A stretch of DNA of 64,000 nucleotides, from the NCBI RefSeq assembly GCF_011764445.1, contig NZ_BLPG01000001.1:7457001-7521000 (forward strand), read 5' to 3'. Position 1 is the stretch's first letter. The number at the start of each line of letters is the position of its first letter. Below are positions 54,855 to 62,467 of this stretch, piece by piece. The DNA is from Phytohabitans rumicis. Lineage in GTDB: Bacteria > Actinomycetota > Actinomycetes > Mycobacteriales > Micromonosporaceae. The translations under genes were made by a program, and so were the position numbers. Under the pieces are notes generated by a model. That model saw only the letters and a list, made by a program, of their open reading frames with translations, was not told the origin of the DNA and did not search any database.

Positions 54855-54963
54855 CCCCCGCGGTTGACGACTGGATTACTGGTCCGGAAAAGATTCTCGG
54901 CGATCGCGTGCAACGTGCGACCTCGCTCCCACCGTCTTGCCCTCAACGGAAGGAGCCAGCCGA

Positions 54964-55497
54964 GTGAATTCCAACGAGGAGGACTTCCGGCGGTTCGTGG
55001 CAGCACGCCTGGATTCGTTACGTGGCCTTGCCTATCTCACCTGCGGGGACTGGCAGGCGGCGGAGGACGCGGTTTCGACCAGCCTGGCGAAGCTCTATGT
55101 GCGGTGGCACAAGGTGGCTTCGCCGGAGCCTTACGCCATTCGGATGGTGGTGCGGGCCGCGATCGACGAGGTCCGACGTCCTTGGCGGCGGGAGCGGTCA
55201 GCTAGTCATGCGCTGCCGGAGACGATCCAACCCGACGGATCCGATTCGATCAACGAGCGCCTGCGCGTCCGTCACGCGCTGCGGCAGCTGCCGATCGGGC
55301 AGCGGGCCGTGTTGGTGCTGCGCTTCTACCAGGAACTCAGCGTCGAGGAGGCGGCCGAGGCGCTAGGCCGGAGCACGGGAACGATCAAGAGCCAGACGGC
55401 ACGAGGGCTCGCGACCCTGCGTCATCTGCTCGCGGTGCAAGACCTTGCGCTCGACGAGGAACTGAAGGAGGAATGCAGCGATGCCCGATATGCGTGA
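54964..55497 (+). CDS. SigE family (ECF) RNA polymerase sigma factor
   Basis: 177 residues. Region 2 is LDSLRGLAYLTCGDWQAAED and region 4 is RQLPIGQRAVLVLRFYQELS with the helix-turn-helix RSTGTIKSQTARGLATLR. GTG 54964 has AAGGAG eight bases upstream. The 3' end overlaps the next gene by 17 bases, so they are coupled. It lies 1.3 kb upstream of the RiPP-like operon and could control it, which is untested. Confidence 0.9.
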   Translation: MNSNEEDFRRFVAARLDSLRGLAYLTCGDWQAAEDAVSTSLAKLYVRWHKVASPEPYAIRMVVRAAIDEVRRPWRRERSASHALPETIQPDGSDSINERLRVRHALRQLPIGQRAVLVLRFYQELSVEEAAEALGRSTGTIKSQTARGLATLRHLLAVQDLALDEELKEECSDARYA

Positions 55498-56614
55498 GCT
55501 TCTACGGATCGCCAGGCAGGACGCGCCCCCGGCGCTGTACAACGTGGACGACATCGTGGCCGCCGGCCGGCGGCGCAAGCGGTGGAGGCTCGCCCAGCGG
55601 GCCGGCGGGATCGGTACGGCCGCCGCGGCCGTGGTGACCGCGGGTGTGTTGGTGATCAGCAACCTCGCCCTGTCCGGCGGCGGCGGGGCGGCCGAGCCGG
55701 TCGGGATCGCGAGCCAGCCCGGACCGTTCGTGATGGAGGCGTCGGAGCCGTTCACGTTCACGTTCGACGGCTACCGGATGGGTGACTACCACGTGCTGCC
55801 GCCGACCGACGTCAACCTGGCCTACCAGTCCACGAACATCGTCCGCTACGGCAAGAACTACGCCAAGGACAAGACGGACATCGCATTCGTCGGCGCCATG
55901 ACGGTCTACCAGCCCGGCGTCTTCAGGCCCGAGAAGTTCCTGTCCGGTACGAAGCTGATCGTGCAGGGCCGGGAGGCGTACCGGGCCCAGCTCACCCGCA
56001 TGGTGTCGAACCAGATCGACGGCAACGGCAACTTCATCAACGGCGAGGAGGTCCCGTACGACGCGCTCGCCTGGCAGTACGGGCCGGACGCCTGGGCCGT
56101 GATCGCGCAGGAGGTGACCCGCTATGGTCCCCAGGACCTGCCGGCCACGACCCAGATCGCAATGGCCGAGCGATTCACACTGCGAACCGGCGAACCGGTC
56201 AAGGCCAGGTTGCCTTTCCGCACCGGCTACCTGCCCGCCGGCTACGAGCTGCTCTCCGTACAGGGCCAGTCGATGACCAGCCCACACTCGGGCATGGTGA
56301 CCTTCGTGTACGGGCGGGCCGACAGGTCGCTGGAATCGCTGACCGGCCCGGTGGACCTTCAGCGCATCCGCAAAGTCCCGTCCATTGTGGTCAGCCTGCT
56401 CTGGGTGGACACGCCGCCGCCGGACGCCAAGAAGCGGACCAGCCGCTGCAACGAGGGCCAGCACTGGTGCAAGCTGGACCTGCCGGGCGGGGAGTTCTGG
56501 GCATTGGCCGAGGACCCGTCGCAGACGCTGGCAGACGCGGAGCTGCTCAAGGTTCTCGACAACCTTGACTTCGCCACCATCAAGAAGGCCAACACCTGGC
56601 ACCCCATCGCCTGA
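55481..56614 (+). CDS. Membrane-anchored partner of SigE-family sigma factor
   Basis: 377 residues. The cytoplasmic N-terminus (PDMRELLRIARQDAPPALYN, then VAAGRRRKRWR) precedes one membrane helix (GTAAAAVVTAGVLVISNLAL) and a large extracytoplasmic domain (RMGDYHVLPPTDVNLAYQST, LPFRTGYLPAGYELL, CNEGQHWCKLDLPGG). It overlaps the sigma gene; AAGGAGG precedes its ATG. Putative anti-sigma or sensor. A hairpin terminator follows. Confidence 0.75.
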   Translation: MPDMRELLRIARQDAPPALYNVDDIVAAGRRRKRWRLAQRAGGIGTAAAAVVTAGVLVISNLALSGGGGAAEPVGIASQPGPFVMEASEPFTFTFDGYRMGDYHVLPPTDVNLAYQSTNIVRYGKNYAKDKTDIAFVGAMTVYQPGVFRPEKFLSGTKLIVQGREAYRAQLTRMVSNQIDGNGNFINGEEVPYDALAWQYGPDAWAVIAQEVTRYGPQDLPATTQIAMAERFTLRTGEPVKARLPFRTGYLPAGYELLSVQGQSMTSPHSGMVTFVYGRADRSLESLTGPVDLQRIRKVPSIVVSLLWVDTPPPDAKKRTSRCNEGQHWCKLDLPGGEFWALAEDPSQTLADAELLKVLDNLDFATIKKANTWHPIA

Positions 56615-56776: not shown

Positions 56777-58084
56777 ATGAGTGGGCTGGCCCGTCGCGAA
56801 GGGTATCGGCAGGTTCTGGCTCGGCCGGATTTCGCGTTGCTGTGGGCGGGTCAGTCCTTGAGCAACGTCGGCAACGCCATGATGCCCGTTGCTCTGGCGA
56901 TGCTGGTGCTGGGTCGTGGTGGCGGTGCGGGCGGCCTGGGCGTGGTACTCGGCGCGCAGAGCGTCGCGCGTCTGGTGGGTGCCGTGTTGGCCGGTGGGTT
57001 GGGCGACCGCTGGCGGCGTACCCGGATCATGATCTGGGCAGATGTGGTTCGCGTCGTCGCGGTCGCCGCGTTGGCCGCGGGGGCCGGGAGCCTGCCGACG
57101 CCGCCGCTGATCGGCTTCGTGTTCGCCATCGGCGTCGCGGAAGGTGTCTTCCTGCCTGCGTTCGACGCCGTCATGCCGCGGGTGCTGCCTGAGCGGTCGC
57201 TGCAGGCGGGAAATGCGCTCAACCGGATCACCACCCAGGTGGCCAGCCTGCTCGGGCCCGCGCTGGCCGGCGTGTTGGTGGCTTGGACGTCACCCGAGGC
57301 CACACTGTGGATCAATGAGGTGACGTTCGTGTTCTCGCTGGTGAGCCTCGCGCTCATCGCCGAGCCGCGCACGGTGACGGGCGGCGCCCGCGTGCTCGGC
57401 GTACGGGACGCGGTGCACCAGGCGGCACGGGACTTCCGCGACGGCATTCGGGCAGTGGCCAGCCGTCCATGGGTGGCGGCGTCGATCGGCATGGCGACGA
57501 TCATCATGACGCTGGTCGTCCCGCCCGCATACGTCGTGCTGGCGCTGGTCGCCAACGAACGGTTGGGTGGCCCCGGCGCATACGGTGCGGTGCTCGCAGC
57601 CGTCGGATTCGGTTCGGTGGTCGGCTTGGTGTGCGTGGGGCGGCTGGAACCCCGCCGGCCGGGCGTGGTCGCCACCGCCGCGCTGTTCACCATCGTGGGG
57701 ATGCTGGTCTCGCTCGCGTTCCTCCCGCTGGCCGGCGTCATGGCGTGTTGGGCGGTGGCCGGTGCGGGCATGGGCATCTACAACCTGCTCTGGACGACGG
57801 CGTTGCAGAAGGACGTGCCGGACGAGTTGCTCGGCCGGGTGTTCGCGCTGGACGAACTGGGGTCAGGAGCGTTCCGGCCGCTCGGGTACCTCCTGACCGG
57901 CCCGGTGGTCGCGCTCGTCGGCACGCACAGCGTGCTGCTGGCCGGTGCCCTGACGGTCGCCGTCGTCGCACCGCTACCCCTGCTGGCCCGCGGCGGTCCC
58001 ACATTCGCCTCCCCGGTCGTCGCCGAGCCTGCGCTGGCCGGCTCGTCGACGGATCTGACAACGATCGAGGAAGGGAGGAGGTGA
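56777..58084 (+). CDS. MFS transporter (putative RiPP exporter)
   Basis: 435 residues, 12 predicted helices. FALLWAGQSLSNVGNAMMPV is the typical N-terminal helix of the MFS_3/enterobactin-exporter-like group, with GGLGDRWRRTRIMIWADVVR as motif A and NALNRITTQVASLLGPALAG in helix 5. The alternative ATG at 56762 lacks a ribosome site; ATG 56777 has GGGAG. The stop is embedded in the ribosome site of the precursor gene, so the two are cotranscribed. It probably exports the mature peptide, which is an inference from position. Confidence 0.85.
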   Translation: MSGLARREGYRQVLARPDFALLWAGQSLSNVGNAMMPVALAMLVLGRGGGAGGLGVVLGAQSVARLVGAVLAGGLGDRWRRTRIMIWADVVRVVAVAALAAGAGSLPTPPLIGFVFAIGVAEGVFLPAFDAVMPRVLPERSLQAGNALNRITTQVASLLGPALAGVLVAWTSPEATLWINEVTFVFSLVSLALIAEPRTVTGGARVLGVRDAVHQAARDFRDGIRAVASRPWVAASIGMATIIMTLVVPPAYVVLALVANERLGGPGAYGAVLAAVGFGSVVGLVCVGRLEPRRPGVVATAALFTIVGMLVSLAFLPLAGVMACWAVAGAGMGIYNLLWTTALQKDVPDELLGRVFALDELGSGAFRPLGYLLTGPVVALVGTHSVLLAGALTVAVVAPLPLLARGGPTFASPVVAEPALAGSSTDLTTIEEGRR

Positions 58085-58089
58085 ACACG

Positions 58090-58272
58090 ATGACGCTGAA
58101 CAAGACGGCACTGCGCGGCATCTCCCGCGGAGCGGCCGAGGAGCCCCGCGACTACAAGGTCGACGCGGTCCGCAGCTACAAGATCGACGCGGCCCACAGC
58201 TACAAGATCGGCGTGGCCCGCGGCTACAAGGTCGGCACTGCCCGCAGTTACAAGGTCGGCGCGATGGTCTGA
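58090..58272 (+). CDS. RiPP-like precursor peptide with five YK octapeptide repeats
   Basis: 60 residues. A perfect AGGAGGTGA at 58076-58084 with five-base spacing selects the ATG at 58090. Residues 1-20 (TLNKTALRGISRGAAEEPR after Met) would be the leader. Residues 21-60 are exactly five octapeptides: DYKVDAVR, SYKIDAAH, SYKIGVAR, GYKVGTAR and SYKVGAMV. Each has an invariant Tyr-Lys, then Val/Ile, then Asp/Gly. There is no Cys, Trp or Asn. It sits between an MFS gene and a radical SAM maturase, so Tyr, Lys or the branched residue is the likely modification site. No experimental proof. Confidence 0.8.
   Translation: MTLNKTALRGISRGAAEEPRDYKVDAVRSYKIDAAHSYKIGVARGYKVGTARSYKVGAMV
58150..58269 (+). 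repeat. Five in-frame 24-bp tandem repeats in the precursor gene
   Basis: Each 24-bp unit encodes one octapeptide and keeps the core TACAAG followed by (G/A)TC and G(A/G)C. Units 2-5 begin (A/G)GC. The strict length and low drift at the invariant codons suggest expansion by unit duplication. Confidence 0.85.
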
Positions 58273-58283
58273 GGCAACAGGGA

Positions 58284-58313
58284 CCGGGGCTACCGGGTCG
58301 CCGGTAGCTCCGG
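58284..58313 (+). terminator. Hairpin between precursor and maturase (possible attenuator)
   Basis: Stem 58284-58296 with 58301-58313: 13 base pairs including one G-U, and a GTCG tetraloop. It lies 11 bases after the precursor stop and 35 bases before the maturase start. A partial terminator or RNA-stabilising hairpin here would give more precursor than enzyme, as in many RiPP operons. Confidence 0.65.
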
Positions 58314-58348
58314 GCCCGGACCGGAAAAGGGAGGATCAGGGAACGACG

Positions 58349-60210
58349 ATGAGGACGTGCCTGGTGTCGATGCCATGGCAGCTGCTGGAGCTGCCATCGC
58401 TCGCGATTGGCCTGCTGCACCAGCGCGTACGCGAGGCGCGGCCGGCGGACACCGTGGTCGAATACCACGGCTGCCTTGATTGGGCGGAACATTTGCTCGC
58501 GGTCACCGACGGAGCATTGAGCCCGGACGACTACACCGACATCGCCGACAACGGTCTGCATCACGGCCTCGGCGACTGGATCTTCGCCGGCTCGCTCTAC
58601 GGCGATCCGACGTGGCGAACGGCCGAACTGCACCGGTACGCGGAATCGGCGCGCGTCGACATTGACCGCGCGGTACGCATGCGCCCGCACGTGGACGGCT
58701 TCATCGCCCTGGCGGCCAAGAAGATCCTTGCCACCGATCCTCAGGTGGTCGGGTTCACCACCACGTTCATGCAGAACGTACCCAGCCTGGCCCTGGCCAA
58801 AAGGCTCAAGCACCTGCGCCCGGACCTCCTTGTCGTGATGGGCGGCGCCAACTGTGACGGGCCGATGGGTCATGCCTTGCACCGCAACCACCCTTTCGTC
58901 GACTACGCCGTGCGCGGCGAGGGAGAAATCGTCCTGCCCCGCCTGCTCGACCGCATCGAGGCCGGCACCGGCGTCCACGACCTGCCCGGCGTGTGCTGGT
59001 GGCACGACGGGGAGTCGGTGGCCAACGAGCAGGCGCATACGACGGTGCCACCCGCGATGATCCCCGTCCCCGACTTCGACAGCTGGCAGGCCCAGCTGTC
59101 GGCTTCGCCGGTGCGCGAGTACGTGGAGCCGAAGCTCGTCCTCGAAGGCGCCCGCGGCTGCTGGTGGGGCGAGAAGCATCAATGCACGTTCTGCGGCCTC
59201 AACGGCTCATTCATAACCTTCCGCAGCAAGAGTCCAGAACAGCTCTGGCACGAGATACAAACGCTCATGCGCCGACACCGGCTGCTCGACCTCATCATGG
59301 TCGACAACATCCTCGACATGCGCTACTTCCACGGCCTGCTGCCACGCTTGGCCGCCAGCGAATGGGACCTGCGCATCCACTACGAGGTGAAGTCAAACCT
59401 GCGAGAGGATCAGGTCCGGCAACTCGCGGAGGCTCGGGTCGCGCATGTCCAACCGGGAATCGAAAGCCTCAGCTCACACGCCCTCAACCTCATGGACAAG
59501 GGCGTGTCCGGGACGGCAAACGTGCGGCTGCTCCGCGACTGCGAAGATCACCAACTCACCGTCAGCTGGAACTACCTCTATGGATTCCCCGGCGAGTGCG
59601 ACGACAACTACCTGGCGATCATCGCGCAGATACCGGCGCTGGTGCATCTGCAGCCGCCCGGATCGGCGACCAGGATCGCACTCGAACGGTTCAGCCCCTA
59701 CTTCGAGCAGCCAGCCCTCGGCTTCCCCGAACGGACGCCCGCGAAACTGTACGACCATGTGTACGACCTCCCACTGCCGAGCTCATGGACCTGGCGTACG
59801 TGTTCGACACGCCACCACGCGGCATCGGTGAAGAAGTTGAACGGTGGCTGCGCGAGGCGATTGAGACCTGGGGCCTGGCATACCCAGGTTCGACGCTGGT
59901 CGCTCGTGAAGGGGACGACGAAACCCTCGTCGTTGAGGACCGTCGCCGGGGATGGCCGGGTACGACACACGTGCTACGAGACTGGCAACGGGCGGCGTAC
60001 GAATTGCTACGCCGCGGATGTAGCGCCGACGCGCTGGGCCGAAAACTGGCCGAAGACGGCTGGCCGGTCGGCGCGGCGCAACGCGACGCCTGGCTCGCCC
60101 ACTGCCGCGCCGAGGGACTCGTCTTTTTCGACGCCGGCACGTTCGTCGCGTTGGCAACGCGGCACGCCGCGGCAAGGGCGTTTCCACCGGCAATGGAGGC
60201 GACGCGATGA
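58349..60210 (+). CDS. RiPP maturation radical SAM protein 1 (B12-type; frameshifted as written)
   Basis: The N-terminal cobalamin-binding-like domain (VSMPWQLLELPSLAIGLLHQ; VVGFTTTFMQNVPSLALAKR; VMGGANCDGPMG) precedes the radical SAM core. Cys271, Cys279 and Cys282 lie in GARGCWWGEKHQCTFCGLNG, the CxxxxxxxCxxC form typical of this family. The frame breaks at the C-run 59770-59772. One added C gives YDLPTAELMDLAYVFD and extends to 60210, a total of about 620 residues, normal for the family. It should bind a 4Fe-4S cluster, SAM and B12, and probably C-methylates or crosslinks the YK repeats. Its stop overlaps the next ATG. Confidence 0.9.
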
Positions 60211-60710
60211 GCCAGGTCAAGGTCGACGCCCCAATCGCACTCGGCGCCGAACCGCGATCAACGGCGTCGTTCGTGGCGTTCCTGCGCGACAGCGCCACCA
60301 ACCTGATCAGTGTTGAATGGCACGGAACCATCACCGGCGCGCTGGATCCGACGCTCCTGCACCACCTGCAGCCACCCACTCAACTGGAAGCCGCGTCGGA
60401 GCAGACCCTGACACAGTGGCGCACGCGCTACCGCTACGGCACCTGTCACTACCGGCGCGGCCCAGGATTCGTCATGCTGAAAGACATCCGCAGCGCGTCC
60501 TCGGCCGCACGATACCTCCTCGACGATCCCCTCTTGATCGCCACATTCCTGCGATGCCAAACACCAACCACGCGGTCATCGCTGAACCACCGGCAGCGCC
60601 ACGCAGTCGACCTGCTGCACACGGCGCGGCTCCTGCTACGAATGGACGACCTCCTGATCGGCCTCCCGACCCGCATGCTGCGCTGGCCGATCCCATATAC
60701 AGCGGTGTGA
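60207..60710 (+). CDS. DUF5825 family-like protein, RiPP cluster component
   Basis: 167 residues. It has a central WRTRYRYGTCHYRRGPGFVM block with Cys and His, and a helical C-terminus. Proteins of this type occur directly after RiPP-maturation-1 radical SAM genes in actinomycetes, to my knowledge as DUF5825. The ATGA overlap with the maturase shows tight coupling, so it may bind the precursor, assist the enzyme or add a second modification. No catalytic motif is known. Confidence 0.75.
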   Translation: MSQVKVDAPIALGAEPRSTASFVAFLRDSATNLISVEWHGTITGALDPTLLHHLQPPTQLEAASEQTLTQWRTRYRYGTCHYRRGPGFVMLKDIRSASSAARYLLDDPLLIATFLRCQTPTTRSSLNHRQRHAVDLLHTARLLLRMDDLLIGLPTRMLRWPIPYTAV

Positions 60711-62035: not shown

Positions 62036-62467
62036 ATGGCGGACGAGGTTGTCGATAGCCCGGTAGGTTGGGTCGCCCGGCACATCAGCTCCTATGTGGA
62101 CACCAATGGCAAGTCCGGGCATTACTTCCACGGCGTCGACGCGCTGCTGCTGACCACGAGGGGCCGCCGGTCCGGCAAGCTGCGGCGCACCGCGCTCTAC
62201 TACGGAACCCGGGACGGCGACTTCGTGCTCGTCGCCTCCAACGGCGGCTCGGTCGGGCATCCGCTGTGGTACCGCAATCTGGTCGTCGACTCGCGCGTGA
62301 CGGTCCAGGTCAAAGACGACGTCTTCGACGCGGTCGCGCGTACGGCGGTGGGCGAGGAGCGCGTCGAACTGTGGGACCGGATGGCCCAAATGTTCCCGAA
62401 CTACGCCCGATACCAGGCGATGGTGGAGCGGGAGATCCCGGTCGTCGTGCTCACCCGGTCTGCTTAA
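62036..62467 (+). CDS. Deazaflavin (F420)-dependent nitroreductase family protein (DUF385)
   Basis: 143 residues with LLLTTRGRRSGKLRRTALYY, FVLVASNGGSVGHPLWYRNL and PNYARYQAMVEREIPVVVLT. All are standard for Ddn-like F420H2-dependent reductases. It is related to, but distinct from, the copy at 29468-29923. Confidence 0.92.
   Translation: MADEVVDSPVGWVARHISSYVDTNGKSGHYFHGVDALLLTTRGRRSGKLRRTALYYGTRDGDFVLVASNGGSVGHPLWYRNLVVDSRVTVQVKDDVFDAVARTAVGEERVELWDRMAQMFPNYARYQAMVEREIPVVVLTRSA

Follow-up and report, generated by a model that had tools for sequence, protein, structure and literature searches.

Introduction

The primary paper on clavusporin names, in its title, peptide surfactants that promote bacterial development. 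In clavusporin, according to PMC12257519, amino acids are C-methylated by a cobalamin (B12)-dependent radical S-adenosylmethionine (rSAM) enzyme paired with a DUF5825 protein, and PMC12951456 describes removal of the leader by a prolyl oligopeptidase, MpcP. In the literature searched, DUF5825 is mentioned in one work only, found as a preprint and in its final version. Here we analyse an operon on the + strand of a 64-kb stretch of the Phytohabitans rumicis genome (the whole stretch being referred to below as the window) that encodes the same kind of enzyme pair. At window positions 56777-60710 it comprises, in order, genes for a major facilitator superfamily (MFS) exporter, a 60-residue peptide ending in octads built around Tyr-Lys (the YK peptide), a cobalamin rSAM maturase and a DUF5825 protein. 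An initial annotation, made from the sequence alone, had given these four genes in this order; profile matches to MFS, TIGR03975 and PF19142, together with the repeats of the peptide itself, bear this out.

Our preferred interpretation, to which we give a probability of about 0.6, is that the operon makes a multi-core, C-methylated ribosomally synthesised and post-translationally modified peptide (RiPP), the leader being held by domains resembling RiPP recognition elements (RREs), methyl groups being transferred along the octads and the product being exported by the MFS protein. C-methylation is the leading candidate for the chemistry because of the clavusporin enzyme pair, a precedent on which the initial annotation had not drawn.

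A leader shared by relatives of the YK peptide

The case for the YK peptide as the precursor comes from its leader. The motif M-x-[ILV]-[KRNDT]-K-[VTI]-x-[ILVT] opens a short open reading frame (ORF) just upstream of 21 of the 24 other maturases in the window's clade (see below). In a wider clade the count is 31 of 44 tree-placed members, or 34 of 47 with three loci (L023, L062 and L157) that were put there on similarity alone. At loci outside the wider clade the motif is never found upstream of the maturase (0/45, a figure that includes L096, L119, L156 and L158, counted as outside without tree placement). Six duplicate loci present in both genome collections (L099, L101, L103, L108, L117 and L136) were dropped from these counts. 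Elsewhere in the 1.996 Mb covered, on both strands, the motif occurs six times, giving an expectation of 0.12 upstream matches, and a stricter version with a ribosome-site rule matches upstream in 30 of 95 loci (duplicates included) and nowhere else. Neither version matches anything in the window besides the YK peptide. The motif was written after the peptides, the window's included, had been viewed and the counts are therefore descriptive, which does not explain their contrast with the background. Two relatives match with qualification, L006 only from an inner GTG and L010 only once the ribosome-site rule is dropped, and a second upstream match at each of L106, L109 and L113 looks like the end of the upstream gene.

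Because the leader is kept upstream of the clade's maturases and is found at none of the 45 loci outside the wider clade, the YK peptide is likely to be the substrate of the maturase, a conclusion reached independently of the repeats. It also makes it highly improbable that the repeat ORF is a chance repeat and no precursor at all: the ORF is short and searches turned up no relative sharing its core, but peptides of the clade have this leader at the same place and a hairpin in the spacer that follows is shared as well.

Some of the relatives carry further features of interest around the precursor. In L110, L104 and L107, two precursor-like copies (KIKKVGLKKVTHGTCKY; KITVVKVKxxTHGV) stand in tandem before a single maturase. 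In Micromonospora and other relatives within the family (L019 5402-5821 and its equivalents in L020, L105, L110 and L111), the precursor starts where a conserved gene ends; the stretch tested has no Pfam match and this gene perhaps encodes another tailoring enzyme.

The repeated core

Translation from ATG 58090 to the stop at 58272 gives the 60 residues of the YK peptide, made up of the leader MTLNKTALRGISRGAAEEP, five octads and a final Val (Table 1). As first described, there are exactly five octads, in exact 24-nt register, with Tyr-Lys in all five followed by Val or Ile and then Asp or Gly; no shuffle of the peptide, out of 20000, reached its 8-residue periodicity. Summed over the ten pairs of repeats, codon differences amount to 37 nonsynonymous against 2 synonymous, and the array therefore looks young, its varied positions differing in amino acid.

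The initial annotation was to be refuted if homologous maturases had no YK-repeat peptide beside them. Taken literally, this test goes against it, no YK-repeat ORF lying upstream of the maturase in any of 98 oriented loci, but it proves too narrow, since in three relatives the shared leader is followed by repeats of other kinds: octads of the type PMIRSAAT at L003 (Nocardiopsis chromatogenes), octads of the type ASSPAVRV at L030 (Streptomyces sp. G44) and, at L102 (3863-4213), a 116-amino acid precursor-like peptide with an IKKVVV leader and 18-residue repeats containing WxAPxKT. The other leader-bearing relatives have cores without such repeats. By inspection, the three octad cores (the window's, L003 and L030) share an aliphatic or aromatic residue adjoining Lys or Arg and a small, Ala/Ser-rich spacer. 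This hydrophobic residue beside a basic one points to Val/Ile, rather than Tyr-Lys as such, as the place of a common chemistry.

It bears too on a different proposal, in which the rSAM enzyme is no methylating enzyme at all but a crosslinking one that links Tyr with Lys, or with a neighbouring residue, inside each octad (−2 Da per repeat). The initial annotation had set aside thioether and Trp crosslinks on the absence of Cys, Trp and Asn; Cys and Trp are indeed missing from the whole peptide, but the leader has an Asn at residue 4. A crosslink would suit the invariance of Tyr-Lys in five repeats whose neighbours vary (the 37 to 2 ratio given above), and PMC12257519 supplies a precedent that weighs against methylation, namely that PbsB, a B12-rSAM enzyme of a biphenomycin-like RiPP pathway, crosslinks ortho-Tyr instead of methylating. 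PbsB, however, acts in that account only after other enzymes, a multinuclear non-haem iron-dependent oxidative enzyme (MNIO) among them, and there is no MNIO among the four operon proteins scanned. Moreover, the closest relatives have precursors that do not retain Tyr-Lys, whereas the aliphatic residue beside a basic one is kept in the octad types, and the maturase belongs to a family named for C-methylation. We therefore regard crosslinking as unlikely.

How the precursor might be cut is a separate matter. The sole Pro of the window peptide is residue 19, exactly at the junction of leader and repeats, and this suggests, weakly, that the leader is removed in one cut and that a single product of about 41 residues results, in place of five octapeptides. 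The initial annotation had suggested that the repeats may be cut after Arg or His into up to five peptides, for which we found no support. That the precursor is five-fold in the sense of being cut into monomeric octapeptides, or shorter pieces, for export by the MFS protein is compatible with methylation and concerns the size of the product only; we consider it possible but doubtful. Its repeats are of equal length and each begins with Arg or His, and there is one Pro per octad in L003 and in the later repeats of L030, which might be read beside the removal of the clavusporin leader by a prolyl oligopeptidase (PMC12951456). On the other hand, none of the four operon genes encodes a protease, a search for that type of protease (S9) had no match in the window or in the stretches fetched for the wider clade, and the core of the window peptide has no Pro.

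The maturase and its broken frame

The first part of the maturase alone scores 524.9 bits against TIGR03975 (cut-off 281.85), the family that NCBI names RiPP maturation radical SAM C-methyltransferase. It has the B12-binding domain PF02310, the rSAM domain PF04055 and the motif GCWWGEKHQCTFCG, in agreement with the initial assignment to the RiPP-maturation-1 type on the strength of GCWWG..CTFCG; the cluster motif C-x7-C-x2-C is present in all 87 distinct maturase rows. A comparison with solved structures by sequence gave weak matches to TokK and one other rSAM chain, and a search of the window's own genome found no other TIGR03975 match. A tree was built from 87 maturases, omitting five identical rows and the four loci that contain stops (L023, L062, L096 and L119). 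It places the window in a 25-row clade with support of 100/96, whose members include Nocardiopsis, Streptomyces, Actinomadura and Mycobacterium. As branching inside this clade is not resolved, the gain and loss of repeats cannot be ordered.

The maturase is not a single continuous frame: a first frame (58349 to ~59779) covers TIGR03975 positions 2-474 and a second (~59788-60210) covers the remainder, up to position 606. The change of frame, near 59.78 kb, may be an assembly error or a real mutation; the initial annotation spoke of a corrected enzyme, which suggests that the break had been noticed there. In a coarse check of GC content in 49 window ORFs, 15, the maturase included, contained one or more 240-nt segments where GC content did not peak at the third codon position, mostly at ORF ends. 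If the break is real, the operon may no longer be productive, in which case the preferred interpretation would describe a former product; we put this at clearly less than an even chance. Apart from the frame change itself, the maturase of a same-genus relative (L096, G005:C1:247673-250058) is likewise divided between two frames, and its DUF5825 contains a TAG, which suggests decay or assembly errors in the genus. Against decay, both maturase parts, DUF5825, the leader and the repeats of the window are otherwise open, and its DUF5825 protein keeps the 12 columns that are invariant over 32 sequences (the window's among them). At L135 (2129-6575), two maturase parts match 1.9 kb apart, as if there were an insertion near the place of the window's frame break. 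The clade holds relatives with open maturase frames and the break is thus no obstacle to experiments.

DUF5825 as a relative of the maturase C-terminus

The fourth protein scores 92.3 bits against PF19142, for which the gathering cut-off is 25, so the initial label of DUF5825-like was right. DUF5825 lies downstream of the maturase in 38 of the 61 loci fetched through the maturase, all at 47% identity or more; the 23 loci without it are all at 40% identity or less and some are on short contigs (L063 holds no downstream DNA). Conversely, a maturase is found upstream in 57 of 60 loci fetched for DUF5825, with no match to the first part of the maturase at L122, L148 and L154. Counting the window's own genome in each case, 51 of 354 genomes in the family encode DUF5825, as do 16 of 394 across the class.

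We also find that DUF5825 is homologous to the C-terminal domain of the maturase itself, a relationship that is new here. Alignment of the two profiles by hhalign gave a probability of 96% (E=3e-9 over 93 columns), against a best E of 0.044 in 30 column shuffles and 0.12 with a reversed profile. A weak TIGR03975 match is seen in 15 of 32 DUF5825 proteins (best E 0.0013), the window's protein matching positions 501-605 with E 0.019, and PF19142 is matched by 3 of 21 maturase C-termini (best E 0.011). Structural models of the two domains (pLDDT 84.2 for the maturase C-terminus and 93.8 for DUF5825) share the order helix-βββ-ααα-ββ. Common descent of the two is well supported by these comparisons. 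RREs are defined, in PMC12710340, by the order βββ-ααα, which both models have when compared by the order of their elements (the middle helix of DUF5825 being very short); we put forward RRE identity for both domains as a hypothesis. By sequence, DUF5825 had one chance-level match among solved structures (E 0.15). The homology turns an unexplained partner protein into a testable claim, that DUF5825 is a second, perhaps leader-binding, copy of the maturase domain.

A proposed pathway

Put together, these observations are consistent with the following scheme. Two RRE-like winged-helix domains, the C-terminal domain of the maturase and its stand-alone paralogue DUF5825, would hold the 19-residue leader with its strand-like M-T-L-N-K-T-A-L-R. 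The cobalamin rSAM domain would then work along the five near-identical octads, methylating unactivated carbons, most probably of the Val or Ile after each Tyr-Lys, and the MFS protein would export the product. Iterative action on the repeats is plausible.

Several results weigh against this scheme. No leader peptide was found at L004, L035 or L137; L004 and L035 are the relatives with the closest MFS, and a precursor sought in these two upstream, in the gap between maturase and DUF5825 and downstream gave nothing convincing. A YK-repeat search of 167 fetched loci returned only the window's own place (L001, L076 and L159), matches in L082, L115 and L155 being unrelated simple repeats (that in L115 a Trp-Arg-Val repeat ~3.9 kb downstream of the maturase). 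Besides the window's own genome, a peptide search for the same core matched 13 of 300 genomes from the family (E 0.006-0.06), 2 of 396 from the phylum (E 0.006-0.009) and one plasmid (E 5), all of which we take, judging by scores alone, to be chance. Among the 50 Foldseek matches listed for each domain there is no named RRE: the maturase C-terminus resembles generic winged helices (Fur, PadR; best E 0.018) and DUF5825 has nothing credible. The maturase frame is broken in the assembly and the pathway may be dead here. Finally, only 2 of the 24 clade relatives, L004 and L035, have an MFS protein as close as 52% identity beside the maturase, where it is encoded divergently, with 27-31% matches at five more; export by the MFS protein is thus only weakly tied to the pathway.

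A bolder form of the proposal, which we hold as decidedly tentative, is that the window represents a RiPP subclass of its own. Two related RRE-like domains (one fused to the B12 enzyme, the other the free DUF5825) would hold a single strand-like leader, which would present the tandem octads to one C-methyltransferase to give a regularly methylated cationic repeat polymer of about 41 residues, leader and enzyme being fixed whilst the unit is freely exchanged (YK octad, MIR octad, VRV octad, WxAP 18-mer). Since cutting into octapeptides and decay of the locus are each compatible with methylation, the odds we attach to the various explanations do not sum to one. Methylation of unactivated carbons is hard chemistry, and a maturase that keeps to one leader while accepting widely differing repeated cores would lend itself naturally to such chemistry; with repeats, moreover, mass spectrometry could read out turnover, order and site choice directly.

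Operon layout and neighbouring genes

The coordinates of the features are collected in Table 1. The initial annotation had the genes coupled by overlaps or short gaps. The overlap between maturase stop and DUF5825 start, of 4 nt (60207-60210), is correct, but the one placed at 58076-58092 is a 5-nt gap between the MFS stop (58082-58084) and the likely precursor ATG, and becomes a 4-nt overlap only if GTG 58081 is used.

Table 1 Features of the operon in the window
Feature	Position	Strand	Evidence
MFS exporter, 435 aa from ATG 56777 (440 aa from in-frame upstream ATG 56762)	56777..58084	+	PF07690 above its cut-off (E=1.4e-28); TIGR00900 below its cut-off (207 bits against 319.6)
Precursor leader, residues 1-19 (MTLNKTALRGISRGAAEEP)	58090..58146	+	Leader motif common to short ORFs upstream of 21/24 clade relatives
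Precursor core: octads RDYKVDAV RSYKIDAA HSYKIGVA RGYKVGTA RSYKVGAM and final V	58147..58269	+	24-nt register; 0/20000 shuffles
Strong RNA hairpin in precursor-maturase spacer, without T run	58280..58317	+	Inverted-repeat search; fold z=-3.1
N-terminal and catalytic portion of the maturase (TIGR03975 positions 2-474), with C-x7-C-x2-C starting at residue 271	58349..59779	+	524.9 bits; PF02310, PF04055
Maturase C-terminal domain, other frame; predicted helix-βββ-ααα-ββ	59788..60210	+	TIGR03975 positions 481-606, E=9.2e-9; model pLDDT 84.2
DUF5825 protein, 167 aa; distant paralogue of maturase C-terminal domain	60207..60710	+	PF19142 92.3 bits; hhalign; model pLDDT 93.8

Elements that keep the precursor in excess of the enzyme commonly lie between the two genes. 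Here 76 nt separate the precursor stop from the maturase start and hold a strongly folding hairpin that may play this role. Hairpins are found in the same spacer of five hand-chosen relatives (L003, L005, L021, L030 and L098; z from −2.6 to −5.1), that is, in 6 of 6 tested with the window. By the T-run rule there is no intrinsic terminator after the precursor.

Upstream, a gene pair at 54937-56614, in which the gene for a SigE-family ECF sigma factor overlaps one weakly similar to CU044_5270 (E=0.019), ends ~160 nt before the operon and might include a regulator of it. Downstream, 62036-62467 encodes an F420H2-dependent quinone reductase family protein (PF04075, E=1.2e-40). In five same-genus genomes, a synteny comparison found short matching pieces alone and no common site for the operon.

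Comparison with known systems

Streptomyces clavuligerus NZ_CP065235 carries a locus (L156) that is probably the clavusporin (mpc) locus. Its order is MFS, S9 protease (PF00326), precursor-like ORF, maturase and DUF5825, which fits the MpcP named in PMC12951456. Window and L156 are alike in a TIGR03975-type rSAM enzyme (50.9% identity over 475 residues) followed by DUF5825, in a precursor-like ORF directly before the maturase and, over 164 residues only, in the upstream MFS (31.7%). They differ in the peptide: that of L156 has 39 residues, a different leader (MQKDVIHNDPLAGDEE...) and no repeats, with Pro before a hydrophobic stretch and three Pro in all, whereas the window has five cationic octads and its leader MTLNKTALRG does not follow the clavusporin-type pattern M-[QR]-K-x-[VI]-...-NDP-.... 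They differ also in the S9 prolyl oligopeptidase. With the S. clavuligerus enzyme as query, tblastn gave matches in 20 loci, L156 included, 18 of which are rows of one 27-row clade. That clade includes L142 and L143, which have peptides similar to that of L156 (itself absent from the maturase tree). Neither the window nor the fetched loci of its wider 45-row clade gave a match. The window is thus a sister type and not a clavusporin.

TvgA and TvgB, in the abstract of PMC9062424, resemble the window in that an rSAM enzyme acts repeatedly on a repeat precursor (with a TVGG motif), and does so on Val. TvgB, however, makes cyclopropylglycine and belongs to an rSAM subfamily that binds up to three [4Fe-4S] clusters, that abstract making no mention of cobalamin, whereas in the window the enzyme contains a domain for B12 binding and is partnered by DUF5825. 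The biphenomycin-like pbs pathway, as given in PMC12257519, shares with the window a RiPP with a B12-rSAM enzyme and an MFS protein, and its YHxYxY relatives carry a second B12-rSAM enzyme with DUF5825; it differs in its MNIO, arginase, hydroxylase and ortho-Tyr crosslink, none of which has a counterpart among the four operon genes of the window. No YK-octad RiPP appears in the titles and abstract openings of the literature searched, a search that most subscription papers lay outside.

Of the initial interpretation, then, the RiPP operon, the identity of the precursor (now through conservation of its leader across relatives) and the rSAM family are supported, and cutting after Arg or His has no support. 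A type of enzyme pair otherwise linked to a surface-active developmental peptide is here probably put to work on a quite different, repeated substrate.

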